Below, piece by piece: positions 26,301-62,763 of a DNA stretch of 64,000 nt; positions within the stretch are counted from its first letter, which is position 1, and every line of letters starts with the position of its first letter. The translations under genes were made by a program, and so were the position numbers. The notes under the pieces are model-generated. The model had not been told where the DNA came from. It saw nothing but the letters and a program-made list of their open reading frames with translations, and made no database searches. The stretch is from Apostichopus japonicus. Taxonomy: Eukaryota > Echinodermata > Holothuroidea > Aspidochirotida > Stichopodidae. Location: assembly GCF_037975245.1 (NCBI RefSeq), contig NC_092575.1, forward strand, positions 29,041,341 to 29,105,340, read 5' to 3'.

Positions 26301-29300
26301 TAACCAGTGTGGTATTTGACCCAGTTATGTGTAACCACTGAGGTATTTGTTGTCGCTGTTAATTTAAACATGTGTAACCAGTGTGGTATTTGACCCAGTT
26401 ATGTGAAACCACAGAGGTATTTGCTGTCCCTGTTAATTTAGACATACATGTGTAACCAGTGTGGTATTTGACCCAGTTATGTGAAACCACTGAGGTATTT
26501 GTTGTCCCTGTTAATTTAAACTACTATAACCAGTGTGATATTTGACCCAGTTATGTGTAACCAGTGAGGTATTTTCATCAATGTTTACATACATTTCTGT
26601 AACCAGTGTGGTATTTGACTCAGTACTGTGTAACCAGTGAGTTATTTGACTTGGTTAGTAATGTGTAACCACTGAGATATTTGTTGTCGCTGTCAACTTA
26701 AAAGTGTATAACCAGTGTGGCATTTGACTAAGTTATTTGTAACTTTGCCAGGGGTATTTCACTATTTTAGTTATGTGGAACAAGTTAAGTTATTTGAATA
26801 GGTTAGATACATTTAATCAGTGAGATATTTGACAAACTTGGTTACTAATTGTTACAGGCTGTGTGGTACTCCACTTAACTCACCATACCTTCTCAAAGCC
26901 ACTCTTTTAACTACATACCTAGTGCACTGTTGATACATGGTACCGCTTGTTAGTAGTATGAATTTCCTTCTTTCATTGTGGTAAATATTTGATAAATTCT
27001 GAAGTCAATGTCACTTAACTGAGGATGTCCTTTTCAAACAGTTTCCATTTGAAGTAAAGAGCTGAACAAAGGCAATAAGCTTTCTTTTGTTTATGATTTT
27101 ATTTTTAGTTTTAACTTTCTGTTTTTGTTTCAGTGATGAGTTGAGAAAGGCAATGGGTTTGAGAGAGCAAGAAATTCCTAGTTATATTTACACCATGAGA
27201 ATGCTGGGTTATCCTCCTGGCTACCTACTGGAGGCAGAGATAACATCATCTGGACTTGCAGTATATGATAAGCTAAGAGGTAATTTCTCATTATATTTAC
27301 ACCATGAGAATGCTGGGTTATCCTCCTGGCTACCTACTGGAGGCAGAGATAACATCATCTGGACTTGCAGTATATGATAAGCTAAGAGGTAATTTCTCAT
27401 TATATTTACACCATGAGAATGCTGGGTTATCCTCCTGGCTACCTACTGGAGGCAGAGATAACATCATCTGGACTTGCAGTATATGATAAGCTAAGAGGTA
27501 ATTTCTCATTATATTTACACCATGAGAATGCTGGGTTATCCTCCTGGCTACCTACTGGAGGCAGAGATAACATCATCTGGACTTGCAGTATATGATAAGC
27601 TAAGAGGTAATTTCTCATTATATTTACACCATGAGAATGCTGGGTTATCCTCCTGGCTACCTACTGGAGGCAGAGATAACATCATCTGGACTTGCAGTAT
27701 ATGATAAGCTAAGAGGTAATTTCTCATTATATTTACACCATGAGAATGCTGGGTTATCCTCCTGGCTACCTACTGGAGGCAGAGATAACATCATCTGGAC
27801 TTGCAGTATATGATAAGCTAAGAGGTAATTTCTCATTATATTTACACCATGAGAATGCTGGGTTATCCTCCTGGCTACCTACTGGAGGCAGAGATAACAT
27901 CATCTGGACTTGCAGTATATGATAAGCTAAGAGGTAATTTCTCATTATATTTACACCATGAGAATGCTGGGTTATCCTCCTGGCTACCCCCTGGAGGCAG
28001 AGATAACAACATCTGGACTTGCAGTATATGATAAGCTAAGAGGTAATTTCTCATTATATTTACACCATGAGAATGCTGGGTTATCCTCCTGGCTACCCCC
28101 TGGAGGCAGAGATAACAACATCTGGACTTGCAGTATATGATAAGCTAAGAGGTAATTTCTCATTATATTTACACCATGAGAATGCTGGGTTATCCTCCTG
28201 GCTACCTACTGGAGGCAGAGATAACATCATCTGGACTTGCAGTATATGATAAGCTAAGAGGTAATTTCTCATTATATTTACACCATGAGAATGCTGGGTT
28301 ATCCTCCTGGCTACCTACTGGAGGCAGAGATAACATCATCTGGACTTGCAGTATATGATAAGCTAAGAGGTAATTTCTCATTATATTTACACCATGAGAA
28401 TGCTGGGTTATCCTCCTGGCTACCTACTGGAGGCAGAGATAACATCATCTGGACTTGCAGTATATGATAAGCTAAGAGGTAATTTCTCATTATATTTACA
28501 CCATGAGAATGCTGGGTTATCCTCCTGGCTACCTACTGGAGGCAGAGATAACATCATCTGGACTTGCAGTATATGATAAGCTAAGAGGTAATTTCTCATT
28601 ATATTTACACCATGAGAATGCTGGGTTATCCTCCTGGCTACCTACTGGAGGCAGAGATAACATCATCTGGACTTGCAGTATATGATAAGCTAAGAGGTAA
28701 TTTCTCATTATATTTACACCATGAGAATGCTGGGTTATCCTCCTGGCTACCTACTGGAGGCAGAGATAACATCATCTGGACTTGCAGTATATGATAAGCT
28801 AAGAGGTAATTTCTCATTATATTTACACCATGAGAATGCTGGGTTATCCTCCTGGCTACCTACTGGAGGCAGAGATAACATCATCTGGACTTGCAGTATA
28901 TGATAAGCTAAGAGGTAATTTCTCATTATATTTACACCATGAGAATGCTGGGTTATCCTCCTGGCTACCTACTGGAGGCAGAGATAACAACATCTGGACT
29001 TGCAGTATATGATAAGCTAAGAGGTAATTTCTCATTATATTTACACCATGAGAATGCTGGGTTATCCTCCTGGCTACCTACTGGAGGCAGAGATAACATC
29101 ATCTGGACTTGCAGTATATGATAAGCTAAGAGGTAATTTCTCATTATATTTACACCATGAGAATGCTGGGTTATCCTCCTGGCTACCTACTGGAGGCAGA
29201 GATAACATCATCTGGACTTGCAGTATATGATAAGCTAAGAGGTAATTTCTCATTATATTTACACCATGAGAATGCTGGGTTATCCTCCTGGCTACCTACT

Positions 29301-32300
29301 GGAGGCAGAGATAACATCATCTGGACTTGCAGTATATGATAAGCTAAGAGGTAATTTCTCATTATATTTACACCATGAGAATGCTGGGTTATCCTCCTGG
29401 CTACCTACTGGAGGCAGAGATAACATCATCTGGTCTTGCAGTATATGATAAGCTAAGAGGTAATTTCTCATTATATTTACACCATGAGAATGCTGGGTTA
29501 TCCTCCTGGCTACCTACTGGAGGCAGAGATAACATCATCTGGACTTGCAGTATATGATAAGCTAAGAGGTAATTTCTCATTATATTTACACCATGAGAAT
29601 GCTGGGTTATCCTCCTGGCTACCTACTGGAGGCAGAGATAACATCATCTGGACTTGCAGTATATGATAAGCTAAGAGGTAATTTCTCATTATATTTACAC
29701 CATGAGAATGCTGGGTTATCCTCCTGGCTACCTACTGGAGGCAGAGATAACATCATCTGGACTTGCAGTATATGATAAGCTAAGAGGTAATTTCTCATTA
29801 TATTTACACCATGAGAATGCTGGGTTATCCTCCTGGCTACCTACTGGAGGCAGAGATAACAACATCTGGACTTGCAGTATATGATAAGCTAAGAGGTAAT
29901 TTCCTATTATATTTACACCATGAGAATGCTGGGTTATCCTCCTGGCTACCTACTGGAGGCAGAGATAACATCATCTGGACTTGCAGTATATGATAAGCTA
30001 AGAGGTAATTTCTCATTATATTTACACCATGAGAATGCTGGGTTATCCTCCTGGCTACCTACTGGAGGCAGAGATAACATCATCTGGACTTGCAGTATAT
30101 GATAAGCTAAGAGGTAATTTCTCATTATATTTACACCATGAGAATGCTGGGTTATCCTCCTGGCTACCTACTGGAGGCAGAGATAACATCATCTGGACTT
30201 GCAGTATATGATAAGCTAAGAGGTAATTTCTCATTATATTTACACCATGAGAATGCTGGGTTATCCTCCTGGCTACCTACTGGAGGCAGAGATAACATCA
30301 TCTGGACTTGCAGTATATGATAAGCTAAGAGGTAATTTCTCATTATATTTACACCATGAGAATGCTGGGTTATCCTCCTGGCTACCTACTGGAGGCAGAG
30401 ATAACATCATCTGGACTTGCAGTATATGATAAGCTAAGAGGTAATTTCTCATTATATTTACACCATGAGAATGCTGGGTTATCCTCCTGGCTACCTACTG
30501 GAGGCAGAGATAACATCATCTGGACTTGCAGTATATGATAAGCTAAGAGGTAATTTCTCATTATATTTACACCATGAGAATGCTGGGTTATCCTCCTGGC
30601 TATCTACTGGAGGCAGAGATAACATCATCTGGACTTGCAGTATATGATAAGCTAAGAGGTAATTTCTCATTATATTTACACCATGAGAATGCTGGGTTAT
30701 CCTCCTGGCTACCTACTGGAGGCAGAGATAACATCATCTGGACTTGCAGTATATGATAAGCTAAGAGGTAATTTCTCATTATATTTACACCATGAGAATG
30801 CTGGGTTATCCTCCTGGCTACCTACTGGAGGCAGAGATAACATCATCTGGACTTGCAGTATATGATAAGCTAAGAGGTAATTTCTCATTATATTTACACC
30901 ATGAGAATGCTGGGTTATCCTCCTGGCTACCTACTGGAGGCAGAGATAACATCATCTGGACTTGCAGTATATGATAAGCTAAGAGGTAATTTCTCATTAT
31001 ATTTACACCATGAGAATGCTGGGTTATCCTCCTGGCTACCTACTGGAGGCAGAGATAACATCATCTGGACTTGCAGTATATGATAAGCTAAGAGGTAATT
31101 TCTCATTATATTTACACCATGAGAATGCTGGGTTATCCTCCTGGCTACCTACTGGAGGCAGAGATAACATCATCTGGACTTGCAGTATATGATAAGCTAA
31201 GAGGTAATTTCTCATTATATTTACACCATGAGAATGCTGGGTTATCCTCCTGGCTACCTACTGGAGGCAGAGATAACATCATCTGGACTTGCAGTATATG
31301 ATAAGCTAAGAGGTAATTTCTCATTATATTTACACCATGAGAATGCTGGGTTATCCTCCTGGCTACCTACTGGAGGCAGAGATAACATCATCTGGACTTG
31401 CAGTATATGATAAGCTAAGAGGTAATTTCTCATTATATTTACACCATGAGAATGCTGGGTTATCCTCCTGGCTACCCCCTGGAGGCAGAGATAACAACAT
31501 CTGGACTTGCAGTATATGATAAGCTAAGAGGTAATTTCTCATTATATTTACACCATGAGAATGCTGGGTTATCCTCCTGGCTACCTACTGGAGGCAGAGA
31601 TAACATCATCTGGACTTGCAGTATATGATAAGCTAAGAGGTAATTTCTCATTATATTTACACCATGAGAATGCTGGGTTATCCTCCTGGCTACCTACTGG
31701 AGGCAGAGATAACATCATCTGGACTTGCAGTATATGATAAGCTAAGAGGTAATTTCTCATTATATTTACACCATGAGAATGCTGGGTTATCCTCCTGGCT
31801 ACCTACTGGAGGCAGAGATAACATCATCTGGACTTGCAGTATATGATAAGCTAAGAGGTAATTTCTCATTATATTTACACCATGAGAATGCTGGGTTATC
31901 CTCCTGGCTACCTACTGGAGGCAGAGATAACATCATCTGGACTTGCAGTATATGATAAGCTAAGAGGTAATTTCTCATTATATTTACACCATGAGAATGC
32001 TGGGTTATCCTCCTGGCTACCTACTGGAGGCAGAGATAACATCATCTGGACTTGCAGTATATGATAAGCTAAGAGGTAATTTCTCATTATATTTACACCA
32101 TGAGAATGCTGGGTTATCCTCCTGGCTACCTACTGGAGGCAGAGATAACATCATCTGGACTTGCAGTATATGATAAGCTAAGAGGTAATTTCTCATTATA
32201 TTTACACCATGAGAATGCTGGGTTATCCTCCTGGCTATCTACTGGAGGCAGAGATAACATCATCTGGACTTGCAGTATATGATAAGCTAAGAGGTAATTT

Positions 32301-35300
32301 CTCATTATATTTACACCATGAGAATGCTGGGTTATCCTCCTGGCTACCTACTGGAGGCAGAGATAACATCATCTGGACTTGCAGTATATGATAAGCTAAG
32401 AGGTAATTTCTCATTATATTTACACCATGAGAATGCTGGGTTATCCTCCTGGCTACCTACTGGAGGCAGAGATAACATCATCTGGACTTGCAGTATATGA
32501 TAAGCTAAGAGGTAATTTCTCATTATATTTACACCATGAGAATGCTGGGTTATCCTCCTGGCTACCTACTGGAGGCAGAGATAACATCATCTGGACTTGC
32601 AGTATATGATAAGCTAAGAGGTAATTTCTCATTATATTTACACCATGAGAATGCTGGGTTATCCTCCTGGCTACCTACTGGAGAAACCTATAACAGCATC
32701 TGGTCTTTCTGGTTATGATAAGCTGACAGGTAGAAAATAATCAATTAAGAAACAGTAGTCTATGATAACAACACATAGCATATTTGAATTTAGAACTGTT
32801 TACAATTGTATATGAATAGGCAGAGAGAGACTTGATTATGGAAGTGATAGGGTATTAAATTCAGGCAGGGGCAGGATTTTATTTTGTTAAAGGGGAGACT
32901 ATATTCAGGAATGAAATATAGGGGCTGTTTTAAACATCTTCAAGTTCATAAAGATTGATTATTTAGCTTGAGTAAGGACTATTATCTTGTGGCTGAACAG
33001 TATGAAGATCATCCTGGATGAGGACACCCTAGACCTAAAGATTACAGCAGGACACTGTCAATTTCTACATTGCATTGTTAAATTATTACATATAAGCTTG
33101 ATATGATAGCATTCAAATTACAAAATTATTCCTAACAACTGTGCTTGTGAAAGAAATCTTTGAATTATTCATTTCTGGCTTTACTTTTATGTCTACCCTG
33201 ATTGCAATATTTCAATATGGTGCTGATTTGTGATGTCAGTAAAAACTGTATAGGCTATGTAATATAAATTTAAAAACTTATAAATAGGAAGCTTAGGAGT
33301 AAAGAAAGGAAATATAAAAAATAAAAGAAATAGAACAGACAGTTCACAGTTAGTAAAGTACAACAATCAATAGTCATAAGCCAAATTGGCCCGTTGACCT
33401 CCCCGAAGTTTATAAACAGTCTTAGGTTTGTAACCTTTTATAATGTTAATCCGGTGCCTGCCATCTTTGAGTAGCTGGGCTGCAGAACGGCCGGACCATT
33501 TGGTTAAATTGTCAATCCATCGTGAATGCAGTCGGCCTGGCTTACGTTTGTAACCACAGGGTAGCCCACAGAGTGCAGCACATGTAAGGCCTCCAAAACG
33601 TACTGCATTAAAGCAGTGATGTAGGAAGGTACTTTTGAGTGGGGGGGCTGAAGACTGATGGCCGGCCTTGGGTAGGGGTCTAAGGGAAGGGGGTGTTCAC
33701 CTCCCCTTTGGTTTTTTTTTTTTGCATTTCCAGTTGGCCTCAGATGCAATTTAGTGCAATATAGCACACTTCAAAACCCACTCCAGTTTGTAAATTATTT
33801 TGCATTTTCACCTGGCCTTAGATGCAATTTGGTGCTCCAAATGAGATTTTTTTCTCATTTGGAAATGAAAAAGGGGTTTTCTGACTTCAGAAGCCGGAGG
33901 GGGGGGGGGGGGGGCGGAATGATACTTCCGCCCACCATATTTTTCACTGGGGGGGGTCTGGTGCCCCCCCCCCCCAGCCCCCCCAGTTCATATGCCCTTG
34001 GCATGATGTAAAGTACAGTTGCAGTTTTTCTCAAATAAACAAAGGTAGCTATTTCTATTATGCAGTTCATATAAACAGTGTATACTTACATATGTGCTGG
34101 TGAAACTTTTGAACTAGCAAGTAACAAGTCTTGCGTGGAGGATTCATGGACATTACTCTATACTACTGCAATGATCTAGGTACACTATGCAATACCAATC
34201 CCAGGATCAATATATATAGTTTTGATGTTTAGTTTTCTTTCACTTACTTATTTGTCTCTTTTTTGCCAGCAGATGAGGAAGGAGAGGTAAAGGAGGCACA
34301 TGACCAGCCTCTGAAGTATAATTCATTGAAACTGATTAAATATCCAGGCTTTAACGTTACACTCGGTGATGGTTTTATAGACGTGAGTTTTGTAGGCTTT
34401 AACGTCACACTCGGTGATGGTTTTATAGACGTGAGTTTTGTTTACATAAGTACTACTGTTAGGTCAGCATAAACATTTGTATGGCTGGCCATATGACAGT
34501 AGCAAGTGCTCTAGATTATTGTTTGGGTTGGGTGAAGGGGCGGGGAGGGGAGGGCTGAGGGGGCTGTTGTTACTTAGTGTTAGAAGCTGGGCACATGGTG
34601 ATAACCATTAGTACTCTTATGTAGGTTTATGTAGATCAAATTTGGTTGAGCAATGTAGATTTTGTTTACCTGTGAAAAGTCTTTTATGCCACCACATCTG
34701 CAGTATGGGAGAATAAGATCCCCAAAGTACAGATGTGACTTGATCAGTGATGTATGCTCAATTTAAGTAAGGTATATATTTAGGTAGGAAATGGCAGTTG
34801 CATTTCAAAAGTGAAATAATAATGCTGGATACTGTTTAGTCAGGTGTATAGAATTTTGGTGTTGAAATGAGACAGATGCCTTCACGATGATATAATGTAA
34901 CAAATTACGTGACAGTTTTATAGAGAAGACTGACACTCTTTAATCAAGAAGTAATACAACTCATGTGAACCTTGGAAAGATCTGCAGAATGACATTGTTT
35001 GTACTAGGAATAATACATGAGTCTAAAGTAGGGAAACAGTAACATATACCAACAGGTTATAGCATGGATACACATATCAAAGAAACATATAAACTCATTT
35101 GTAACCATATGGCACATTGTCTGCTTAATTAGTCTGCTAATATTGTTATCTTCCAATCAGGACTGCCAGTATAGAAACATGCCTCCGATGCAGGAATACC
35201 ACTCATATGACATATTTCAATCATTCATGGCCTCAAAGTCATCCAGTGAGGGAGAAAGTAAAAAGAGGAAAGGAGAATTCAGCGAAAGTGAAGAGAGAAG

Positions 35301-38300
35301 AAATAGAAAGAAAGGCCGTATTCAAGAGGTCAAAGAGATGGACATTGGTAGTCCTGTATCTCCATCTTTCTCAGGTCAGTTCTTAGATCAAGGAGAGGAT
35401 TTCAAATCCTCATTGATGTAATCACCCTGTGTGCTGCTTCCCTCTGTAGTCATGAAGGGTCTCTCACGATGTTAGGTCAGGGTTTAGATCAAGGAGAGGC
35501 TTTCAAATCCACAAATGTAATCACCCTGTGTGCTGCTTCCCTCTGTAGTCATGAAGGGTCTCTCACGATGTTAGGTCAGGGTTTAGATCAAGGAGAGGCT
35601 TTCAAATCCTCAAATGTAATCACCCTGTGTTCTGCTTCCCTCTGTAGTCATGAAGGGTCTCTCATGATGTTAGGTCAGGGCTTAGATCAAGGAGAGGCTT
35701 TCAAATCCACAAATGTAATCACCCTGTGTTCTGCTTCCCTCTGTAGTCATGAAGGGTCTCTCATGATGTTAGGTCAGGGCTTAGATCAAGGAGAGGCTTT
35801 CAAATCCACAGATGTAATCACCCTGTGTGCTGCTTCCCTCTGTAGTCATGAAGGGTCTCTCATGATGTTAGGTCAGGGTTTAGATCAAGGAGAGGCTTTC
35901 AAATCCACAAATGTAATCACCCTGTGTTCTGCTTCCCTCTGTAGTCATGAAGGGTCTCTCATGATGTTAGGTCAGGGCTTAGATCAAGGAGAGGCTTTCA
36001 AATCCACAAATGTAATCACCCTGTGTTCTGCTTCCCTCTGTAGTCATGAAGGGTCTCTCATGATGTTAGGTCAGGGTTTAGATCAAGGAGAGGCTTTCAA
36101 ATCCTCAAATGTAATCACCCTGTGTGCTGCTTCCCTCTGTAGTCATGAAGGGTCTCTCATGATGTTAGGTCAGGGTTTAGATCAAGGAGAGGCTTTCAAA
36201 TCCTCAAATGTAATCACCCTGTGTGCTGCTTCCCTCTGTAGTCATGAAGGGTCTCTCATGATGTTAGGTCAGGGTAGATCAAGGAGAGGCTTTCAAATCC
36301 ACAAATGTAATCACCCTGTGTTCTGCTTCCCTCTGTAGTCATGAAGGGTCTCTCATGATGTTAGGTCAGGGTAGATCAAGGAGAGGCTTTCAAATCCTCA
36401 AATGTAATCACCCTGTGTTCTGCTTCCCTCTGTAGTCATGAAGGGTCTCTCATGATGTTAGGTCAGGGTTTAGATCAAGGAGAGGCTTTCAAATCCTCAA
36501 ATGTAATCACCCTGTGTGCTGCTTCCCTCTGTAGTCATGAAGGGTCTCTCATGATGTTAGGTCAGGGTTTAGATCAAGGAGAGGCTTTCAAATCCTCAAA
36601 TGTAATCACCCTGTGTGCTGCTTCCCTCTGTAGTCATGAAGGGTCTCTCATGATGTTAGGTCAGGGTTTAGATCAAGGAGAGGCTTTCAAATCCTCAAAT
36701 GTAATCACCCTGTGTGCTGCTTCCCTCTGTAGTCATGAAGGGTCTCTCATGATGTTAGGTCAGGGTAGATCAAGGAGAGGCTTTCAAATCCTCAAATGTA
36801 ATCACCCTGTGTTCTGCTTCCCTCTGTAGTCATGAAGGGTCTCTCATGATGTTAGGTCAGGGTTTAGATCAAGGAGAGGCTTTCAAATCCTCAAATGTAA
36901 TCACCCTGTGTTCTGCTTCCCTCTGTAGTCATGAAGGGTCTCTCATGATGTTAGGTCAGGGTTTAGATCAAGGAGAGGCTTTCAAATCCACAAATGTAAT
37001 CACCCTGTGTTCTGCTTCCCTCTGTAGTCATGAAGGGTCTCTCATGATGTTAGGTCAGGGTTTAGATCAAGGAGAGTCATTACTTGGTATGTTTGTTACT
37101 GTGGTTTAGTTGTATCTATGTGTGAAACATTTTCCTGCACATTTTTACCAGACATGAAATTTCTGTTGAGAACTTACACAAGACAGTTTGTCAGAAAGGT
37201 TCATTACAGCTTTAGAATGTGTGTTTGGTGGAAGTTTTGAAACTTCGTTTATGGCAAATTGTATGCGCAAGAATGGATGCGAGATATTCTCAATGGACAA
37301 AAGTTCTTGTTGCAAGTTCAGTTTTAGCTATTTCTGCTGTTTGAGATGGTTAGCATTCCAAGAAATACTTTTGCATTCCTCTATTTATTATATTGTGAAC
37401 TTCAGTACAAGTCCTGGTCCATTCTAATGATCAAGGTAGACAGCAAAACAACAACCTCCTTATGTAATCATTATTATTATTAACGTGTACACAAACTAGT
37501 TTTGTTTCCTGGAACATATGCTTTGAATGTAACAAAAAGGTTACCTTAAAAACTAACATGGTACACAACATCACACCAGATTTGTGACTCTGTTAGCATG
37601 GCAATCTTTAGTTAAATTACAAATAAAACTGCCATTGATTGTGCCAATTCAGCAAACTATTTGATATGGATTAGTTTTGGATTGTTAAATGGAAACCTCA
37701 ATGCTACACTATAAAACAGTGATTGAGGAAACATGTGGGTATCATTTACACATGTCAGCTGGACCTTGTTCACAATGAAATCTGTACTGGTATCTAGTTT
37801 GTGAGGCTTTCACCCCTTCAATGTTTCACCATTGTAAGTAATGTAAGATTCATGCAGGCATCTGGGCTCTGAGCCAGAATTCTGTGTCACATTTGAGTAA
37901 TGCCATTTACGTGTCAAACAAATTTATGCCTTTTGCGTTTAATGTGGCTAAATAAATTGGCTTTACTTTTTACATCATTTAAGACAAGAACAAACCTTTT
38001 TATTTGTAATATTTTAAAGTCTGATGTCTTAAGGTAGCATACCCCCATTAAAAGCCCCATTGACTTACGCAATAAATCACAAAAGTAATATGATCTCTAA
38101 GTCTAGATAGAAGTTTTCATTAGCTAAATGCTACCCATCACCAGATAGCTGACAAGTTGGTCTTTCATGGCACCATCAATTTTCTGTACCATGACCATGC
38201 AGATTTTTTGCCATCCGAGCTGGAAGTTTTTGTCACTTGTAATCAAACCTCTTCACTCAGTGGTAAACAATTTTCCTTCGCTGCCCCTGGGAGGCCTAAA

Positions 38301-39771: not shown

Positions 39772-39840
39772 GTCATGAAAAACCAAGATATGTTAACTTT
39801 TAGGTCAGGTAGAGAATGTGAGGTGTACCTGTTGCATCAT

Positions 39841-42160: not shown

Positions 42161-42164
42161 CATA

Positions 42165-46355: not shown

Positions 46356-46356
46356 A

Positions 46357-49048: not shown

Positions 49049-49187
49049 TCACTCTTTGCCAATGCTAGCTTTAAGTTCCTTGATTTGTTTGGATACTGCT
49101 GATTTAGCTGTTCCACCTAGACTTGAGTACTGTTCCACGCTGGTCTCATAGTCCCAAAGCTTTGCAACGTCTTCATCGAACTGGGAA
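49049..49187 (-). CDS. ASL: ASL last exon
   Basis: Encodes [20 protein letters not shown], then [11 protein letters not shown] and [12 protein letters not shown] with stop TGA (49051-49049). The acceptor is TTTTATCTTAG. The first base completes a split codon (CA+T, His) from the previous exon, giving LKSIHSQFDEDV against human LQTISPLFSGDV. Confidence 0.95.
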
Positions 49188-52100
49188 CTAAGATAAAATA
49201 GAAATAAAAGTAAACAAAAGCTTGAAAAGTAGTAAATGGACATAATAGGGCAGCAGAATCTGGTATAGTTAAGAACATACAATTCTTTATCTATTTAATG
49301 AAAATGATCATCCATGAAGAAACTACAACCAAGTAGCAGCATCTATTTATCTACACAGGTAAATAACCATCCATAAAGAAACTAATGTAACCAAGTAGCA
49401 CTACCCATTTATCTGCACAGGTAAATGATCATCCTTTAAGAAACTAATGTAACCAAGTATCACTATCCATTTATCTGCACAGGTAAATAACCATCCATAA
49501 AGAAACTAATGTAACCAAGTAGCACTATCCATTTATCTATATTGGTAAATGATCATCCATGAAGAAACTAATGTAACCAAGTATCACTATCCATTTATCT
49601 ATATTGGTATTAAAATAACCATCCATAAAGAAACTAATGTAACCAAGTAGCACTATCCATTTATCTATATTGGTAAATGATCATCCATGAAGAAACTAAT
49701 GTAACCAAGTAGCACTATCCATTTATCTATATTGGTAAATAACCATCCATAAAGAAACTAATGTAACCAAGTATCACTATCCATTTATCTATATTGGTAA
49801 ATGATCATCCTTTAAGAAACTAATGTAACCAAGTATCACTATCCATTTATCTGCACAGGTAAATAACCATCCATAAAGAAACTAATGTAACCAAGTAGCA
49901 CTATCCATTTATCAATATGGGTAAATGATCATCCATGAAGAAACTAATGTAACCAAGTATCACTATCCATTTATCTATATGGGTAAATAACCATCCATAA
50001 AGAAACTAATGTAACCAAGTAGCACTATCCATTTATCTATATTGGTAAATGATCATCCTTTAAGAAACTAATGTAACCAAGTATCACTATCCATTTATCT
50101 GCACAGGTAAATAACCATCCACAAAGAAACTAATGTAACCAAGTAGCACTATCCATTTATCTATATGGGTAAATGATCATCCTTTAAGAAACTAATGTAA
50201 CCAAGTAGCACTATCCATTTATCTATATTGGTAAATAACCATCCATAAAGAAACTAATGTAACCAAGTATCACTATCCATTTATCTATATGGGTAAATCC
50301 ATGAAGAAACTAATGTAACCAAGTAGCACTATCTATTTATCTATATTGGTAAATAACCATCCATAAAGAAACTAATGTAACCAAGTATCACTATCCATTT
50401 ATCTATATGGGTAAATGATCATTCATGAAGAAACTAATGTAACCAAGTAGCACTATCCATTTATCTATATTGGTAAGTAACCATCCATAAAGAAACTAAT
50501 GTAACTAAGTAGCACTATCCATTTATCTATATGGGTAAATGATCATCCATGAAGAAACTAATGTAACCAAGTAGCACTATCCATTTATCTATATTGGTAA
50601 ATAACCATCCATAAAGAAACTAATGTAACCAAGTATCACTATCCATTTATCTATATGGGTAAATGATCATTCATGAAGAAACTAATGTAACCAAGTAGCA
50701 CTATCCATTTATCTATATTGGTAAGTAACCATCCATAAAGAAACTAATGTAACCAAGTAGCACTATCCATTTATCTATATTGGTAAATGATCATCCATGA
50801 AGAAACTAATGTAACCAAGTATCACTATCCATTTATCTATATGGGTAAATGATCATCCATGAAGAAACTAATGTAACAAAGTAGCACTATCCATTTATCT
50901 ATATGGGTAAATGATCATCCATGAAGAAACAAATGTAACCAAGTATCACTATCCATTTATCTGCACAGGTAAATAACCATCCATGAAGAAACTAATGTAA
51001 CCAAGTAGCACTATCCATTTATCTATATGGGTAAATGATCATCCATGAAGAAACTAATGTAACCAAGTAGCACTATCCATTTATCTACACAGGAAAATGA
51101 TCATCCATGAAGAAACTAATGTAACCAAGTAGCACTATCCATTTATCTACACAGGTAAATAACCATCCATAAAGAAACTACTGTAACCAAGTAGCACTAT
51201 CCATTTATCTATATGGGTAAATGATCATCCATGAAGAAACAAATGTAACCAAGTAGCACTATCCATTTATCTATATGGGTAAATCCATGAAGAAACTAAT
51301 GTAACCAAGTAGCACTATCTATTTATCTACACAGGTAAATAACCATCCATAAAGAAACTACTGTAACCAAGAAGCACTATCCATTTATCTATATGGGTAA
51401 ATGATCATCCATGAAGAAACAAATGTAACCAAGTAGCACTATCCATTTATCTATATGGGTAAATCCATGAAGAAACTCATGTAACCAAGTAGCACTATCT
51501 ATTTATCTACACAGGTAAATAACCATCCATAAAGAAACTACTGTAACAAAGTAGCACTATCCATTTATCTATATTGGTAAATGATCATCCATGAAGAAAC
51601 TAATGTAACCAAGTAGCACTATCCATTTATCTATATTTGTAAATAACCATCCATAAAGAAACTAATGTAACCAAGTAGCACTATCAATTTATCTATATTG
51701 GTAAATGATCATCCATGAAGAAACTAATGTAACCAAGTAGCACTATCAATTTATCTACACAGGTAAATGATCATCCTTTAAGAAACTAATGTAACCAAGT
51801 ATCACTATCCATTTATCTGCACAGGTAAATAACCATCCATGAAGAAACTAATGTAACCAAGTAGCACTATCCATTTATCTATCTTGGTAAATGATCATCC
51901 ATGAAGAAACTAATGTAACCAAGTAGCACTATCCATTTATCTATATTTGTAAATAACCATCCATAAAGAAACTACTGTAACCAAGTATCACTATCAATTT
52001 ATCTATATTGGTAAATGATCATCCATGAAGAAACTAATGTAACCAAGTAGCACTATCCATTTATCTATATTTGTAAATAACCATCCATAAAGAAACTAAT

Positions 52101-55100
52101 GTAACCAAGTAGCACTATCCATTTATCTATATGGGTAAATGATCATCCATGAAGAAACTAATGTAACCAAGTATCACTATCCATTTATCTATATTGGTAT
52201 TAAAATAACCATCCATAAAGAAACTAATGTAACCAAGTAGCACTATCTATTTATCTACACAGGTAAATAACCATCCATAAAGAAACTACTGTAACCAAGT
52301 AGCACTATCCATTTATCTATATGGGTAAATGATCATCCATGAAGAAACTAATGTAACCAAGTAGCACTATCCATTTATCTACACAGGAAAATGATCATCC
52401 ATGAAGAAACTAATGTAACCAAGTAGCACTATCCATTTATCTATATGGGTAAATCCATGAAGAAACTAATGTAACCAAGTAGCACTATCTATTTATCTAT
52501 ATTGGTAAATGATCATCCTTTAAGAAACTAATGTAACCAAGTATCACTATCCATTTTATCTGCACAGGTAAATAACCATCCATAAAGAAACTAATGTAAC
52601 CAAGTAGCACTATCCATTTATCTATATTGGTAAATAACCATCCATAAAGAAACTAATGTAACCAAGTAGCACTATCAATTTATCTATATTGGTAAATGAT
52701 CATCCATGAAGAAACTAATGTAACAAAGTAGCACTATCCATTTATCTATATGGGTAAATGATCATCCATGAAGAAACTAATGTAACCAAGTAGCACTATC
52801 CATTTATCTATATGGGTAAATGATCATCCATGAAGAAACTAATGTAACCAAGTAGCACTATCCATTTATCTATATTGGTAAATGATCATCCATGAAGAAA
52901 CTACTGTAACCAAGTTGCACTTTCAATTTATCTACACAGGTAAATGATCATCCTTTAAGAAACTAATGTAACCAAGTATCACTATCCATTTATCTGCACA
53001 GGTAAATAACCATCCATAAAGAAACTAATGTAACCAAGTAGCACTATCCATTTATCAATATGGGTAAATGATCATCCATGAAGAAACTAATGTAACCAAG
53101 TAGCACTATCCATTTATCTACATGGGTAAATGATCATCCATGAAGAAACTAATGTAACCAAGTAGCACTATCCATTTATCTATATTGGTAAATGATCATC
53201 CATGAAGAAACTAATGTAACCAAGTAGCACTATCCATTTATCTATATTGGTAAATGATCATCCATGAAGAAACTAATGTAACCAAGTAGCACTATCCATT
53301 TATCTATATGGGTAAATGATCATCCTTTAAGAAACTAATGTAACCAAGTAGCACTATCCATTTATCTATATGGGTAAATGATCATCCATGAAGAAACTAC
53401 TGTAACCAAGTAGCACTATCAATTTATCTATATTGGTAAATGATCATCCATGAAGAAACTAATGTAACCAAGTAGCACTATCCATTTATCTATATTGGTA
53501 AATGATCATCCATGAAGAAACTAATGTAACCAAGTAGCACTATCCATTTATCTACATGGGTAAATGATCATCCATGAAGAAACTAATGTAACCAAGTATC
53601 ACTATCCATTTATCTATATGGGTAAATGATCATCCATGAAGAAACTAATGTAACCAAGTAGCACTATCTATTTATCTACACAGGTAAATAACCATCCATA
53701 AAGAAACTACTGTAACCAAGTAGCACTATCCATTTATCTATATGGGTAAATGATCATCCATGAAGAAACTAATGTAACCAAGTAGCACTATCAATTTATC
53801 TATATTGGTAAATGATCATCCATGAAGAAACTAATGTAACCAAGTAGCACTATCCATTTATCTATATGGGTAAATGATCATCCATGAAGAAACTAATGTA
53901 ACCAAGTAGCACTATCAATTTATCTATATTGGTAAATGATCATCCATGAAGAAACTAATGTAACCAAGTAGCACTATCCATTTATCTATATTGGTAAATG
54001 ATCATCCATGAAGAAACTAATGTAACCAAGTATCACTATCCATTTATCTATATTGGTAAATGATCATCCATGAAGAAACTAATGTAACCAAGTAGCACTA
54101 TCCATTTATCTATATTGGTAAATGATCATCCATGAAGAAACTAATGTAACCAAGTAGCACTATCCACTTATCTACATGGGTAAATGATCATCCATGAAGA
54201 AACTAATGTAACCAAGTAGCACTATCAATTTATCTATATTGGTAAATGATCATCCATAAAGAAACTAATGTAACCAAGTATCACTATCCATTTATCTATA
54301 TGGGTAAATGATCATTCATGAAGAAACTAATGTAACCAAGTAGCACTATCCATTTATCTATATTGGTAAGTAACCATCCATAAAGAAACTACTGTAACCA
54401 AGTATCACTATCAATTTATCTATATTGGTAAATGATCATCCATGAAGAAACTAATGTAACCAAGTATCACTATCCATTTATCTATATGGGTAAATGATCA
54501 TCCATGAAGAAACTAATGTAACCAAGTAGCACCATCAATTTATCTATATTGGTAAATGATCATCCATAAAGAAACTAATGTAACCAAGTATCACTATCCA
54601 TTTATCTATATGGGTAAATGATCATCCATGAAGAAACTAATGTAACCAAGTAGCACTATCAATTTATCTATATTGGTAAATGATCATCCATAAAGAAACT
54701 AATGTAACCAAGTATCACTATCCATTTATCTATATGGGTAAATGATCATCCATGAAGAAACTAATGTAACCAAGTATCACTATCCATTTATCTATATGGG
54801 TAAATGATCATCCATGAAGAAACTAATGTAACCAAGTAGCACTATCAATTTATCTATATTGGTAAATGATCATCCATGAAGAAACTAATGTAACCAAGTA
54901 GCACTATCCATTTATCTATATGGGTAAATGATCATCCATGAAGAAACTAATGTAACCAAGTATCACTATCCATTTATCTATATGGGTAAATGATCATCCA
55001 TGAAGAAACTAATGTAACCAAGTAGCACTATCTATTTATCTACACAGGTAAATAACCATCCATAAAGAAACTACTGTAACCAAGTAGCACTATCCATTTA

Positions 55101-58100
55101 TCTATATGGGTAAATGATCATCCATGAAGAAACTAATGTAACCAAGTAGCACTATCAATTTATCTATATTGGTAAATGATCATCCATGAAGAAACTAATG
55201 TAACCAAGTAGTACTATCCATTTATCTACATGGGTAAATGATCATCCATGAAGAAACTAATGTAACCAAGTAGCACTATAAATTTATCTATATTGGTAAA
55301 TGATCATCCATGAAGAAACTAATGTAACCAAGTAGCACTATCAATTTATCTACACAAGTAAATGATCATCCTTTAAGAAACTAATGTAACCAAGTATCAC
55401 TATCCATTTATCTGCACAGGTAAATAACCATCCATAAAGAAACTAATGTAACCAAGTAGCACTATCCATTTATCTATATGGGTAAATGATCATCCATGAA
55501 GAAACTAATGTAACCAAGTAGCACTATCCATTTATCTACATGGGTAAATGATCATCCATGAAGAAACTAATGTAACCAAGTAGCACTATCAATTTATCTA
55601 CATGGGTAAATGATCATCCATGAAGAAACTAATGTAACCAAGTAGCACTATCAATTTATCTATATTGGTAAATGATCATCCATGAAGAAACTAATGTAAC
55701 CAAGTAGCACTATCAATTTATCTACACAGGTAAATGATCATCCTTTAAGAAACTAATGTAACCAAGTATCACTATCCATTTATCTGCACAGGTAAATAAC
55801 CATCCATAAAGAAACTAATGTAACCAAGCAGCACTATCCATTTATCTATATGGGTAAATGATCATCCATGAAGAAACTAATGTAACCAAGTAGCACTATC
55901 CATTTATCTACACAGGTAAATAACCATCCATAAAGAAACTACTGTAACCAAGTAGCACTATCCATTTATCTATATGGGTAAATGATCATCCATGAAGAAA
56001 CTAATGTAACCAAGTAGCACTATCAATTTATCTATATTGGTAAATGATCATCCATGAAGAAACTAATGTAACCAAGTAGCACTATCCATTTATCTATATT
56101 GGTAAGTAACCATCAATGAAGAGACTAATTTAACCAAGTAGCACTATCCATTTTTCTATATGGGTAACTAACCATCCATGAAGAAACTAATGTAACCAAG
56201 TAGCACTATCCATTTATCTATCTTGGTAAGTAACCATCAATGAAGAGACTAATTTAACCAAGTAGCACTATCCATTTATCTATATGGGTAAATGACCATC
56301 CATAAAGAAACTAATGTAACCAAGTAGCACTATCCATTTATCTATATTGGTAAGTAACCATCAATGAAGAGACTAATTTAACCAAGTAGCACTATCCATT
56401 TATCAACACAGGTAAAAAAAAGTAAGCTATAAGCTATAATCATTTTTTTTTTAACAGCTGACTCTACTTACTGGATTGACTTAATATTTGTATGTTAAAG
56501 TCAGCTATAACCAGTTGTTTCTTCTTAACAGCTGACCCTACTTACTGGATTGACTTAATATTTGTATGTTAAAGTCAGCTATAACCAGTTGTTTCTTCTT
56601 AACAGCTGACTCTACTTACTGGATTGACTTAATATTTGTATGTTAAAGTCAGCTATAACCAGTTGTTTCTTCTTAACAGCTGACTCTACTTACTGGATTG
56701 ACTTAATATTTGTATGTTAAAGTCAGCTATAACCAGTTGTTTCTTCTTAACAGCTGACCCTACTTACTGGATTGACTTAATATTTGTATGTTAAAGTCAG
56801 CTATAACCAGTTGTTCCTTCTTAACAGCTGACCCTACTTACTGGATTGACTTAATATTTGTATGTTAAAGTCAGCTATAACCAGTTGTTTCTTCTTAACA
56901 GCTGACCCTACTTACTGGATTGACTTAATATTTGTATGTTAAAGTCAGCTATAACCAGTTGTTTCTTCTTAACAGCTGACCCTACTTACTGGATTGACTT
57001 AATATTTGTATGTTAAACTCAGCTATAACCAGTTGTTCCTTCTTAACAGCTGACCCTACTTACTGGATTGACTTAATATTTGTATGTTAAAGTCAGCTAT
57101 AACCAGTTGTTTCTTCTTAACAGCTGACCCTACTTACTGGATTGACTTAATATTTGTATGTTAAAGTCAGCTATAACCAGTTGTTTCTCCTTAACAGCTG
57201 ACCCTACTTACTGGATTGACTTAATATTTGTATGTTAAAGTCAGCTATAACCAGTTGTTTCTTCTTAACAGCTGACCCTACTTACTGGATTGACTTAATA
57301 TTTGTATGTTAAAGTTAGCTATAACCAGTTGTTCCTTCTTAACAGCTGACTCTACTTACTGGATTGACTTAATATTTGTATGTTAAAGTTAGCTATAACC
57401 AGTTGTTCCTTCTTAACAGCTGACCCTACTTACTGGATTGACTTAATATTTGTATGTTAAAGTTAGCAATAACCAGTTGTTTCTTCTTAACAGCTGACCC
57501 TACTTACTGGATTGACTTAATATTTGTATGTTAAAGTCAGCTATAACCAGTTGTTTCTTCTTAACAGCTGACCCTACTTACTGGATTGACTTAATATTTG
57601 TATGTTAAAGTCAGCTATAACCAGTTGTTCCTTCTTAACAGCTGACTCTACTTACTGGATTGACTTAATATTTGTATGTTAAAGTTAGCTATAACCAGTT
57701 GTTCCTTCTTAACAGCTGACCCTACTTACTGGATTGACTTAATATTTGTATGTTAAAGTTAGCAATAACCAGTTGTTCCTTCTAAACAGCTGACTCTACT
57801 TACTGGATTGACTTAATATTTGTATGTTTAAGTTAGCTACAACCAGATGTTTTTTCTTAACAGCTGACTCTACTTACATTTCTACATCTTCGACCAGCTG
57901 TTTCTTCTTAACAGCTGACTCTACTTACTCGATTGACTTTATATTCGCATGTTAGCTACAACCAGATGTTTTTTCTTTACAGCTAACTCTTCTTACTATT
58001 TGTACATTAAAGTTAGCTACAACCAGCTGTTTCTTCTTAACAGCTGACTTTACTTACTGGATTGACTTAAGATCTTGCATTGTCAGTTCTTGCATCTTGC

Positions 58101-61100
58101 AATTCTTTTTCTCTGCTAGAGCAACTACTTCCCCTGATTTACCATGAGCATCCCTGAAAGGAACCTACAATAGAAAAGAAACCTATGATAAACAACATCT
58201 ATAACAACCAGCAACAGCAGCAGGAATGAAATAACAATAAAATAAACCGAAGAAGAGGGACAGAAAAAGAAAAAACAAGGAAGGAAATAAGCCTGCAAGA
58301 ACAAAAAAGAAAGAAAGATATCATAGACAACCCGAAATACAATCAGCTTTGTGATTCATTGTCATACAATTTGCCCAAAATTCCGAATAACTATCTGACT
58401 AATGTAGTGCAAGTTTGTTAACCAGGAAAGATCAGAGATTTAAATCTCTTATTTGTAGCACTCCCTTGTGGGGCATCTACCATTTAATTCACTGGTAAGG
58501 ATTTAACATTATAGAATTTTTTATTCCAAAATGTTTAAATATCCAGAAAGAAAAGTCTTCCTGTGTGAAATATAGACCCATTAGATGTATGAATAAAAGG
58601 ACATTTTCTTCTACCAATTTCAGCTAGCAAATCAGCTCTGCTACGAACCACCCCTTTAATAATTGTTATTAATGAATGAGAGTTACATGACATTGTTTAC
58701 ACACTGTAAAATAGTTTTACAAAGCTACTGCCTAAGCAAAAAATTTTATCTAGTAAAAATCACAGAGAAAATGGCAAATGTTTTCACCGTTTGAGATAAC
58801 CTGTTGACCCCATGGAACTCAGAGTGTGCAAACTGATAAGAGCCATTTGAGATAACCTGTTGACCCCATGGAACTCAGAGTGTGCAAACTGATAAGAGCC
58901 ATTTGAGATAACCTGTTGACCCCATGTAGCTCAGAGGTCTAAGCTATATCCAGTCTGGAGTCCTCGTCTAGGTTCCTGCATCAGCCTGCTTGCTCTACAG
59001 GTCTCAGCTCTATCCAGTCTGGAGACCTCACCTAGGTTTCTGTCTCAACCTGCTTGCTCTATAGGTCTAAGCTATATCCAGTCTGGAGTCCTCGCCTAGG
59101 TTCCTGTCTGAACCTACTTGCTCTACAGGTCTCAGCTATATCCAGTCTGGAGTCCTCGCCTACGTTTCTGTCTCAACCTACTTGCTCTACAGGTTTTAGC
59201 TATATCCAGTCTGGAGTCCTTGCCTAGGTTCCTGCATCAGCCTGCTTGCTCTATAGGTCTAAGCTATATCCAGTCTGGAGTCCTCGCCTAGGTTCCTGCA
59301 TCAGCCTACTTGCTCTATAGGTCTAAGCTATATCCAGTCTGGAGCCCTCGCCTAGGTTCCTGTCTCAACCTACTTGCTCTACAGGTCTCAGCTATATCCA
59401 GTTTGGGGACCTCACCTAGGTTTCTGTCTCAACTTGCTTGCTCAATAGGTCTAAGCTATATCCAGTCTGGAGTCCTTGCCTTGGTTCCTGTCTCAACCTA
59501 CTTGCTCTACAGGTCTCAGCTATATCCAGTCTGGGGACCTCACCTAGGTTTCTGTCTCAACTTGCTTGCTCTATAGGTCTAAGCCATATCCAGTCTGGAG
59601 TCCTCGCCTAGGTTTCTGTCTCAACCTGCTTGCTTTACAGGTCTCAGCTATATCCAGTCTGGAGTCCTCGCCTAGGTTCCTGCATCAGCCTACTTGCTCT
59701 ACAGGTCTCAGCTATATCCAGTCTGGGGACCTCACCTAAGTTTCTGTCTCAACCTGCTTGCTCTATAGGTCTCAGCTATATCCAGTCTGGAGTCCTCGCC
59801 TAGGTTCCTGCATCAGCCTACTTGCTCTACAGGTCTCAGCTATATCCAGTCTGGGGACCTCACCTAAGTTTCTGTCTCAACCTGCTTGCTCTATAGGTCT
59901 CAGCTATATCCAGTCTGGAGTCCTCGCCTAGGTTCCTGTCTCAACCTACTTGCTCTACAGGTCTCAGCTATATCCAGTCTGGAGACCTCGCCACAACCTG
60001 CTGTATCTGTAGGAGGCCAACTTAAACATTTCCAACTAATTATTCTTTTTAGTCATTTCCAACTCAGTTGTTATGGCTGTGAATATTTTTCTCTCATCCG
60101 AATTGTTGGATAGTAAGCTTTGTATAATGAAAAGCTTAGTTAGCTAGGCATATGTCACAACAGAGACAAGATATTAAGTGGGGAGTTTCGAGAAAGTGTG
60201 GAGTTTTCCCTTTAAGCTAACAGATATCCTGTTAGTTTTAACATGACGTAAGTGTCCTAGGCTAGCAGTACTGTGTACATGCAGATGTAATTGAATCTAT
60301 TAGTTTGCTAGTCCACCCACAAAAGATCACACAGCACTGAGTTAATACTTACTCCCTTTCTGACAAGATAGTATGCAACATCTGTAGCAAGCATCGTAGT
60401 ACTGAGGGCAGCCTTCATGTTGTCTGCATTGATAGTCAATGTTGCCAGGACCCCAGCAGAGATTTGAAGCATATCTGATCCAATAATAAGATAAGGATGA
60501 AAGTAAGCTATACATTTGTTTGAATTCTAACTTGATTCTAGTGCTGTGGCCTAGCTTCATGGAAAACCTTTAGAATAACCTTTCACCCCCTTTAATGTCG
60601 TATATCTATACATGATATTGAATTACTTTCAGAGACTTTAATATATCAGTCACAGAAAACATCAAACTTTATGTCATTGACTTTAAGAGCATCAATCATG
60701 TGAGTACCCTACGGATATGTTTTAGCACTTAAATATATATCCAATCAAAATCAGTCACCTACAAACCAGAGACGGCATCTTTTGCTTCAAAAAGTGCCTC
60801 ACATTGCCATTAACTTTAGCCACTTAATATATATCCAATTGAATTCAGTCACCTACAAACTGACTAGTGACAGTGTCATATACTTCAAAGAGTGCCTCCC
60901 TATTGCCATCGCTACATACCAGAGAGTGTCATATACTTCAAAGAGTGCCTCCCTATTGCCATGACTACCTACCAGAGACAGTGTCATATGCTTCAAAGAG
61001 TGCCTCCTTATTGCCATGACTACCTACCAGAGACAGTGTCATATGCTTCAAAAAGTGCCTCCCTATTGCCATCACTACATACCAGAGAGTGTCATTTGCT

Positions 61101-62695
61101 TCAAAGAGTGCCTCCTTATTGCCATGACTACCTACTAGTGAGAGTCTCATATACTTCAAAGAGTGCCTCCCTATTGCCATGACTACCTACAAGTGACAGT
61201 GTCATTTACTTCAAAGAGTGCTGCCCTATTGCCATGACTACCTACCAGAGACAGTGTCAAATGCTTCAAAAGTGCCTCCCTATTGCCATGACTACCTACC
61301 AGAGACAGTGTCAAATGCTTCAAAGAGTGCCTCCTTATTGCCATGACTATGTACCAGAGACAGTGTCATATGCTTCAAAAAGTGCCTCTCTATTGCCATG
61401 ACTACCTACCAGACGGTGTCATTTGCTTCAAAGAGTGCCTCCTTATTGCCATGACTACCTACTAGTGAGAGTGTCATATACTTCAAAGAGTGCCTCCCTA
61501 TTGCCATGACTACCTACAAGTGACAGTGTCATATACTTCAAAGAGTGCTGCCCTATTGCCATGACTACCTACCAGAGACAGTGTCAAATGCTTCAAAAGT
61601 GCCTCCTTATTGCCATGACTACCTACTAGTGAGAGTGTCATATGCTTCAAAAAGTGCCTCCTTATTGCCATATCTACATACCAGAGAGTGTCATATACTT
61701 CAAAGAGTGCCTCCCTATTGCCATATCTACATACCAGAGAGTGTCATATACTTCAAAGAGTGCCTCCCTATTGCCATATCTACATACCAGAGAAGTGTCA
61801 TATACTTCAAAGAGTGCCTCCCTATTGCCATATCTACATACCAGAGACAGTGTCATATACTTCAAAGAGTGCCTCCCTATTGCTATGACTACCTACCAGA
61901 GACAGTGTCATATACTTCAAAGAGTGCCTCCCTATTGCCATGACTACCTACAAGTGACAGTGTCATATACTTCAAAGAGTGCTGCCCTATTGCCATGACT
62001 ACCTACCAGAGACAGTGTCAAATGCTTCAAAAGTGCCTCCTTATTGCCATGACTACCTACTAGTGAGAGTGTCATATGCTTCAAAAAGTGCCTCCTTATT
62101 GCCATATCTACATACCAGAGAGTGTCATATACTTCAAAGAGTGCCTCCCTATTGCCATATCTACATACCAGAGAGTGTCATATACTTCAAAGAGTGCCTC
62201 CCTATTGCCATATCTACATACCAGAGAAGTGTCATATACTTCAAAGAGTGCCTCCCTATTGCCATATCTACATACCAGAGACAGTGTCATATACTTCAAA
62301 GAGTGCCTCCCTATTGCTATGACTACCTACCAGAGACAGTGTCATATGCTTCAAAGAGTGCCTCCCTATTGCCATATCTACATACCAGAGACAGTGTCAT
62401 ATACTTCAAAGAGTGCCTCCCTATTGCCATGACTACCTACCAGAGACAGTGTCATATACTTCAAAGAGTGCCTCCCTATTGCCATGACTACCTACTAGTG
62501 AGAGTGTCATATACTTCAAAGAGTGCCTCCCTATTGCCATGACTACCTACCAGAGACAGTGTCATATACTTCAAAGAGTGCCTCCCTATTGCCATGACTA
62601 CCTACTAGTGAGAGTGTCATATACTTCAAAGAGTGCCTCCCTATTGCCATGACTACCTACCAGAGACAGTGTCATATGCTTCAAAGAGTGCCTCC

Positions 62696-62727
<32 letters not shown>

Positions 62728-62763
62728 TGGTAGACCCTTTAGTGTCATTAAGAAACCAGAACA
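49049..62763 (-). CDS. ASL: Argininosuccinate lyase, C-terminal part (last four coding exons; 5' part outside the window)
   Basis: On the minus strand, 62763-62661, 60474-60353, 58164-58058 and 49187-49049 join in frame into about 157 residues to a stop, aligning almost gap-free with the C-terminal third of animal ASL. ASL is the cytosolic, homotetrameric enzyme that splits argininosuccinate into arginine and fumarate in the urea cycle and arginine synthesis. Seen here are [38 protein letters not shown] (human [18 protein letters not shown]) and [17 protein letters not shown] (human WDYGHSVEQYGALGGTA). The signature loop with the catalytic serine (GSSxMPxKxN) is encoded upstream, beyond 64000. 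Introns are about 2.2, 2.2 and 8.9 kb and are mostly satellite DNA. The gene is convergent with ZCCHC8. Confidence 0.93.
49284..56415. repeat. 62-bp satellite, about 115 copies, in the last ASL intron
   Basis: The largest array here, 7.1 kb. The unit has GTAAATGATCATCCATGAAG, AAACTAATGTAACCAAGTAG and CACTATCCATTTATCTATAT. It has two interchangeable variant blocks: GATCATCCATGAAG, AACCATCCATAAAG or GATCATCCTTTAAG, and CTATATTGG, CTATATGGG, CTACACAGG or CTGCACAGG. On the left, blocks alternate, suggesting a dimeric 124-bp ancestral unit; on the right the GATCATCCATGAAG type dominates. It ends about 95 bp from the last exon acceptor. Unlike the other ASL arrays it carries no exon sequence. Confidence 0.98.
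56440..58057 (-). repeat. 74-bp array of the ASL exon 3' end plus 5' splice site, about 21 copies
   Basis: On the minus strand the authentic exon ends TTAAGTCAATCCA with donor GTAAGTAAAGTCAGCTG. The array that follows it into the intron repeats, every 74 bp, TTAAGTCAATCCA with GTAAGTAGGGTCAGCTG. Each copy thus has about 13 nt of exon and a consensus donor. The two or three copies nearest the exon (57840-58045) are diverged; the rest are nearly identical. Confidence 0.95.
58058..58164 (-). CDS. ASL: ASL exon (VPFRDAHG exon)
   Basis: Encodes [20 protein letters not shown], then [15 protein letters not shown]. It aligns with human [20 protein letters not shown] ... LNQLSLQELQTI. Phase 0 on entry, phase 2 on exit, donor CCA then GTAAGT. 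Confidence 0.95.
58165..58790. other. Unique part of an ASL intron
   Basis: AT-rich, with an A-rich purine segment (58180-58320). No gene or array is seen. Confidence 0.75.
58793..58930. repeat. 56-bp tandem repeat, 2.5 copies, in an ASL intron
   Basis: The unit contains GAGATAACCTGTTGACCCCA and AGAGTGTGCAAACTGATAAG; copies are essentially identical. It grades directly into the 64-bp array. Confidence 0.9.
58935..59995. repeat. 64-bp tandem repeat, about 17 copies, in an ASL intron
   Basis: The unit has GCTATATCCAGTCTGGAGTC, CTCGCCTAGGTTCCTG and CAACCTACTTGCTCTACAGG. Two main types alternate: GGAGTCCTCGCCTAGG and GGGGACCTCACCTAGG. The latter reads CTAGGTGAGG on the sense (minus) strand, a donor-like motif. 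Open plus-strand frames are by-products. Confidence 0.94.
60000..60352. other. ASL intron adjacent to the donor, unique
   Basis: Unremarkable AT-rich sequence next to the donor GTAAGTATTAAC of the 60353-60474 exon. Confidence 0.75.
60353..60474 (-). CDS. ASL: ASL exon ([15 protein letters not shown] exon)
   Basis: Encodes, after a split Asp codon, [20 protein letters not shown], then [20 protein letters not shown]. It aligns with human [20 protein letters not shown] and ...[14 protein letters not shown]. The acceptor is TATTGGATCAG; the donor is GGGA then GTAAGT. Confidence 0.95.
60475..60774. other. ASL intron near the acceptor, unique
   Basis: About 300 bases of AT-rich sequence between the exon acceptor and the start of the 55-bp array. 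Only a weak repeat of TTAATATATATCCAAT-type sequence (about 60730 and 60824) is seen. Confidence 0.7.
60775..62660 (-). repeat. 55-bp array of the ASL exon 3' end plus 5' splice site, about 33 copies
   Basis: On the minus strand the authentic exon ends GAGGCACTCTTTGAAGCATA plus TGACACTGTCTCTG, with donor GTAGGTAGTCATGG. Every unit repeats GGAGGCACTCTTTGAAG, TATATGACACTGTCTCTG and GTAGGTAGTCATGG or GTATGTAGATATGG, so each carries about 34 nt of exon ([11 protein letters not shown]) and a donor. A higher-order block of 434 bp is present twice (61545-61978 and 61979-62412). Units near 60780 are degenerate. Both-strand open frames are by-products. Confidence 0.96.
62661..62763 (-). CDS. ASL: ASL exon ([17 protein letters not shown] exon)
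   Basis: Encodes [20 protein letters not shown], then [14 protein letters not shown]. It aligns with human [20 protein letters not shown], then EAVFEVSDTMS. The acceptor is TTTTCTTACAG; it ends in phase 1 at TCTCTG followed by GTAGGT. Confidence 0.95.

Follow-up and report, generated by a model that had tools for sequence, protein, structure and literature searches.

Minisatellite-like arrays copy exon-intron junctions in ZCCHC8 and ASL of Apostichopus japonicus and recur in other sampled genes

Results

The window analysed here, a 64,000-nt stretch of Apostichopus japonicus DNA (contig label C15:29041341-29105340; genome of 671.58 Mb in 35 contigs), carries ZCCHC8 on the plus strand and ASL on the minus strand, as placed by tblastn with human ZCCHC8 and ASL protein sequences. 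Tandem arrays were detected with Tandem Repeats Finder (TRF), which returned 66 rows for the window. Strong arrays, defined by a period of at least 25 and a score of at least 150, occupy 54% of the window; within the span of the finding described below the figure is 69%. The initial annotation of this DNA had placed arrays at the 5' splice sites (donors) of ZCCHC8 exons 9, 10 and 11 and of two ASL exons. TRF, a TRF-free probe and the reading frames bear this out, and the five arrays are confirmed as real: in four the copied unit comprises an exon's 3' end plus the donor, and the fifth starts at the donor.

In ZCCHC8 the exon called exon 9 (27134-27279, plus strand; located by tblastn, splice sites and frame) ends in the first copy of a 109-bp array (27182-32732, plus strand; TRF copy number 50.9, about 51 copies), a copy composed of 98 nt of exon end, the donor and the start of the intron. 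TRF gives 99% identity within this array. Exon 10 (34270-34382, plus strand; tblastn, splice sites, frame) is followed by a 48-bp tandem duplication of exon end and donor (34346-34441, plus strand; TRF copy number 2.0, one mismatch). The third array, with a unit of 99 bp (35383-37076, plus strand; 17.2 copies), begins at the donor AG/GTCAG of exon 11 (35161-35374, plus strand; splice sites, frame) and leaves the exon part uncopied. On the opposite strand, an ASL exon (58058-58164, minus strand; tblastn, splice sites, frame) borders a 74-bp array (56432-58068, minus strand), of which TRF reports 19.6 copies at 56432-57877 and a degenerate continuation at 57893-58068; it copies about the last 13 nt of the exon and the donor CCA/GTAAGT. 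A further ASL exon, ending in the residues DTVS (62661-62763, minus strand; tblastn, splice sites, frame), runs into a 55-bp array (60869-62699, minus strand; TRF copy number 33.6, 33 copies found), the first copy of which includes the exon's final 39 nt as well as the donor CTG/GTAGGT.

The TRF-free probe is a 40-mer that joins an exon's last 24 nt to 16 intronic nt and is searched for within the following 250 nt. It scores 40 of 40 at donor 27280, 32 at 34383, 38 at 62660 and 25 at 58057; the reversed probe scores 3 at donors 27280 and 34383, the control being available for ZCCHC8 only. At the exon 11 donor (35375) the score is 11 of 40 and the shared stretch starts at AG/GTCAG, in agreement with the earlier description of that array as sharing the donor side only. 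The donor GT is intact in every copy found: 51/51 in the 109-bp, 2/2 in the 48-bp, 16/16 in the 99-bp, 33/33 in the 55-bp and 21/21 in the 74-bp array. No purging of decoy splice sites by selection was seen in the copies of these five arrays. When the first-copy donors are used, a frame free of internal stops runs through the final five exons of ZCCHC8 (25419 to the stop) and through the final four of ASL, and each affected intron joins two coding exons in frame.

Units of the five arrays match one another over 8-9 nt only (E of 0.23 or more). Neither related units nor a single mobile element as the source was seen. The claim that a recurrent process and not one mobile element is at work is supported, both for this reason and because such arrays recur elsewhere in the genome sample described below.

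Two of the arrays deserve further description. The last copy of the 109-bp array (window 32632-32740) is identical at 52/52 positions in its first part and at 38/57 in the remainder; its exon-like part is in frame, with differing residues (EKPITASGLSGYDKLTG versus EAEITSSGLAVYDKLRG), and it may be an old copy or the relic of an alternative exon end. A PSP-domain search for a ZCCHC8 paralogue as the source of this diverged copy returned at least two loci, the ZCCHC8 exon and C8:17722304. In each unit of the 99-bp array (35383-37076) an acceptor-like stretch, TTCCCTCTGTAG, lies 26 nt upstream of a donor-like TTAG/GTCAGG, so that each unit could, judged by its letters, be read as a micro-exon.

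By the probe, 4 of 14 donors but 0 of 15 acceptors in the window have copied junctions (Fisher p=0.04), a comparison made on the discovery set; weak splice-site models among these junctions are donor 8340 and acceptor 13373. The adjoining 10 kb holds no copied junction at 5 donors and 4 acceptors.

Do such arrays occur in other genes of this genome? We assembled a sample of exons from Pfam searches for dynein AAA_6, TCP1, myosin head and kinesin motor domains. The first set comprises 138 stretches with 204 exons (81 dynein, 70 myosin and 53 of 57 TCP1); left out of the 208 matches in these three families were four TCP1-like ones in long uninterrupted frames. The kinesin set, picked after the first result, comprises 59 stretches with 94 of 126 matches, the other 32 being left out. 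Splice models were obtained for 252 donors and 288 acceptors in 298 exons; the donor could not be modelled for 46 exons and the acceptor for 10.

According to TRF, strong arrays straddle 13 of 178 donors and 5 of 198 acceptors in the first set (Fisher p=0.05), versus 1 of 74 donors and 1 of 90 acceptors in the kinesin set (p=1.0). Alignment finds copies of exon and donor in 8 of the 14 donor cases, with L105 as a ninth if its donor is placed at the upstream copy; in the remaining five the array overlaps the modelled exon by just 2-13 nt. All 6 acceptor cases have upstream copies of the true acceptor with its tract, AG and exon start, and AG is intact in 22 of 22 aligned copies. The restriction to the donor side seen in the window thus does not extend to the sample. 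Two of the clear donor cases have weak models, L098 (score 0.0) and L137 (1.5), both of which fit the frame of the neighbouring exon. The smallest TRF period of each straddling sample array is 28-124 bp, next to 48-109 bp for the window units. In the first three families arrays cover about 3% of the 25 nt before acceptors and 7-8% of the 50 nt after donors.

All enrichment tests reported here are based on small samples and uncorrected p values. With the probe at a score of at least 20, junctions are copied at 11/252 donors and 6/288 acceptors (p=0.14), or at 12/252 donors with the L105 donor at its upstream copy (p=0.10); at a score of at least 22 the donor counts become 9/252 (p=0.31) and, with the upstream L105 donor, 10/252 (p=0.21), versus 6/288 acceptors. 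Intron 40-mers taken 40-100 nt past the donor have a downstream copy in 14/247 to 22/242 cases, and those near acceptors are copied in 7/281 to 11/266 (score at least 20 for both), whereas exon-middle 40-mers have copies in 2/298 downstream and 0/298 upstream and the reversed control yields 0 or 1. The rate of junction copying, about 4-6% of sampled donors and about 2% of acceptors in the four gene families, thus lies between those of exon and intron on both sides, and any donor bias is mild at most. A donor excess appears in array starts (see Discussion) and is gone when the same probe is run on intron control positions. At sampled acceptors no pile-up of array ends matches that at donors (5/16 ends, p=0.37).

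Some sampled genes, like ZCCHC8, carry arrays at or just after the donors of several exons: L041-L044 (TCP1, C17), L098-L099 (TCP1, C21) and L124-L126 (myosin, C4). Conserved exons lie inside open frames at C21:16417768 (958 aa), C5:20152916 (649 aa) and C17:29994585 (1109 aa); the first of these runs into an array of period 46/138, 138 being a multiple of three. TCP1/Cpn60-like matches in uninterrupted frames at C3:29768027-29769685 (613 aa) and C8:490794-491699 (380 aa) may be intronless copies or foreign DNA.

Other repeats of the window leave junctions uncopied. A 15-bp array (22825-23144, plus strand) begins 9 nt past donor 22816, where the probe scores 2 of 40, and is an ordinary intronic array. 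Most of one ZCCHC8 intron is taken up by a 58-bp array (14205-19683, plus strand) that starts about 140 nt past donor 14064, and most of the last ASL intron by a 62-bp array (49302-56404, minus strand) that reaches neither junction. In the first ZCCHC8 intron, window 8757-11152 (ends approximate) is flanked by inverted copies of one sequence, with TCAAGACAAC repeats at 8784 and GTTGTCTTGA repeats at 11098 (TRF and by eye); it resembles a DNA transposon some 2.4 kb long. G exceeds C on the sense strand of the gene in 11 of 12 measured arrays of ZCCHC8 and ASL introns. Along the window, GC skew reverses its sign close to 40 kb, in the interval that separates these genes.

Discussion

By every feature examined, the junction arrays are of a known kind. 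The initial annotation knew of no described class that fits; the "mirages" of amphioxus do (PMC3087553, PMC3902484), and human boundary repeats have been described as well (PMC2812944). Mirages are described as minisatellite-like tandem duplications of exon-intron boundaries in Adh3 and the globins (PMC3087553), with further examples in PGBD5 and troponin C (PMC3902484); of those in the globins BflGb6 and BflGb9, one is on the acceptor side and one on the donor side, and the report gives splicing as undisturbed and length as unstable (PMC3087553). As in the published accounts, the A. japonicus repeats span boundaries (units of 10-160 bp there, 48-109 bp in the window), many units keep AG/GT, and the authentic exon-side copy is intact (PMC3087553, PMC3902484). 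Both boundary types are affected in amphioxus and in our sample (14/252 donors, 6/288 acceptors), with donors only in the window. Like the globin mirage as described, the 109-bp array, the only one examined in this respect, combines homogenised copies inside with a diverged copy at its edge (PMC3087553). Unlike the globin mirage, for which 3-6 copies are given, one array here has 51, and unlike the amphioxus cases reported, these lie in an echinoderm and affect several exons of one gene as well as a neighbouring gene. Human internal tandem repeats are likewise reported to overlap exon-intron boundaries and to alter intron structure (PMC2812944); those described are recent differences between paralogues in segmental duplications, some creating new introns, whereas the A. 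japonicus arrays attach to introns between expected exons. With intron gain by tandem duplication of AGGT sites (PMC4974935, discussed in PMC3087553) they share a duplicated segment that carries splice signals, but a new intron need not be assumed, as the affected introns join coding exons in frame. Literature searches aimed at echinoderms, among open-licence papers, found no echinoderm case of junction-copying repeats.

We therefore favour, with a probability of about 0.73, the reading that the junction arrays are mirages, that is, minisatellites with a unit that by chance extends across a splice junction, produced by general birth and expansion and tolerated by the gene. Short tandem duplications would arise often within genes of this genome, and some would turn into arrays, whose length would then rise and fall through slippage or unequal exchange. 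Where a duplication spans a junction, the gene would survive as long as the copy attached to the exon body is preserved, which is the first copy at a donor and the last at an acceptor; the remaining copies would sit in the intron with their splice signals, tolerated as decoys. We infer the mode of birth, the mode of expansion and the indifference of splicing to the decoys. What we observe directly are the arrays, the intact exon-side copy, splice signals in the copies, both junction types and no excess over intron copies. The duplication at exon 10, with 2.0 copies, has no extra matching bases at its ends, and this bare two-copy state is a plausible birth stage.

Does the constant orientation relative to transcription call for a transcription- or RNA-linked cause, as had been proposed? 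An array that holds the 3' end of an exon would break that exon if it extended exonward, so the polarity is a matter of geometry. Any donor case should show it, the same relative to transcription and opposite along the chromosome, and it provides no evidence for an RNA-linked mechanism.

Several results nevertheless weigh against a purely even birth of mirages. In the combined sample strong arrays straddle 14/252 donors versus 6/288 acceptors (Fisher p=0.04), although removal of one weak donor (L098 or L137) gives 13/252 versus 6/288 and p=0.06. Eleven strong arrays start between -50 and 0 of a donor versus 11 between 0 and 150 (p=0.01) and versus 13 in the whole downstream stretch of 0 to 300+ (p=0.0002), the latter figure being overstated because arrays that start far from the exon extend past the retrieved DNA and go uncounted. 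The 84 introns sampled in full hold 6 strong arrays, every one of them across a junction (4 donor, 2 acceptor); uniform placement would predict 1.24 per side (donor P=0.015, acceptor P=0.36). When weaker arrays are added, 17 of the 23 stay within the intron, and the donor P is 0.03. The deficit of donors relative to intron is for its part mostly non-significant (12/252 versus four positions, p of 0.69, 0.26, 0.14 and 0.075). The cases also cluster by gene: the 14 donor cases sit in 9 of 77 sampled genes versus 12.9 expected (P=0.001); pooling them with the acceptor cases gives 14 genes (P=0.016), and 23 donors with an array start in -100 to +120 fall in 13 genes, a degree of clustering reached in none of 20,000 shuffles. 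Intron length is uncontrolled in all three tests. Such clustering is unlike what a uniform process would give.

Part of this could be met by a refinement of the mirage reading, which we regard as a tentative possibility: birth would be even, and surplus downstream donors would be tolerated better than surplus upstream acceptors, leaving a mild donor bias. The branch point, the polypyrimidine tract and the first-transcribed acceptor are put forward, just as tentatively, as causes. The TRF count, the lower array cover before acceptors and the window count (4/14 versus 0/15, though in the discovery set) agree with it, but the difference by probe is non-significant at either cut, and acceptor decoys persist in all 6 acceptor cases. 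A different proposal is that some feature of transcribed exon ends (paused polymerase, an R-loop, U1-bound nascent RNA or paired nicks) makes duplications start there by preference. The pile-up of array starts, the complete-intron test and the clustering by gene speak for such donor seeding, as does a sense-strand GC skew of sample arrays (mean +0.103 versus +0.026 in matched intron, P=0.019), though their G+T content does not differ significantly (P=0.09). We nonetheless think donor seeding unlikely: copies are no commoner for donors than for intron 40-100 nt beyond them, acceptors are struck as well (6/288), and the kinesin set offers 1/74 donors and 1/90 acceptors. In the sample a modest donor bias is seen by TRF and in the start positions and is non-significant by the probe. 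About as doubtful, and perhaps slightly more so, is birth of the junction arrays in gene-specific bursts, with edges favouring exon 3' ends, through a transcription-linked process in the germ line.

Could the copied donors instead have been kept by selection for U1 binding, for example to shield long introns from premature 3' end processing? None of the copies found in the four many-copy arrays (51, 16, 33 and 21) lacks GT, and in three of these arrays the donor 9-mer varies slightly less than the remainder of the unit (uniformity 0.996 versus 0.995/0.984, 1.000 versus 0.996/0.973 and 0.984 versus 0.975/0.953). In the most varied array, of 55 bp, it varies slightly more (0.926 versus 0.935/0.946), and because copies share descent these figures are weak either way. 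Strong donor-like sites (score of at least 5) occur in the consensus units of 8 of 53 arrays in sense and of none in antisense, but 5 of the 8 lie in loci with straddling arrays, where they are expected, and in loci without one the best sense site beats the antisense site only 16:10. Acceptor-side arrays, moreover, likewise keep their acceptors. Selection for extra donors is thus improbable. Least probable of all is an artefact of assembly or of collapsed or expanded repeats. The 99% identity within the 109-bp array would suit it; set against this are independent donor cases in 9 sampled genes, two- and three-copy ones among them, and the reads reported for a chromosome-level A. japonicus assembly (PacBio HiFi at about 64x, PMC10344927), whose mean length of 14.7 kb, if the assembly is the same, exceeds the 5.5 kb of the longest array among the five.

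Mirages, hitherto known from a few amphioxus genes, are thereby extended to an echinoderm, and the four gene families provide first rough rates. The junction arrays offer a natural test case for spliceosomal choice among dozens of identical sites, and new exons and introns might arise from them. Their clustering by gene offers a handle on what drives the birth of minisatellites within genes. Should the gene-specific bursts prove true, the driver would be a G-rich sense strand, an R-loop or a nick, and the donors of such genes would be mutation hotspots of the lineage.

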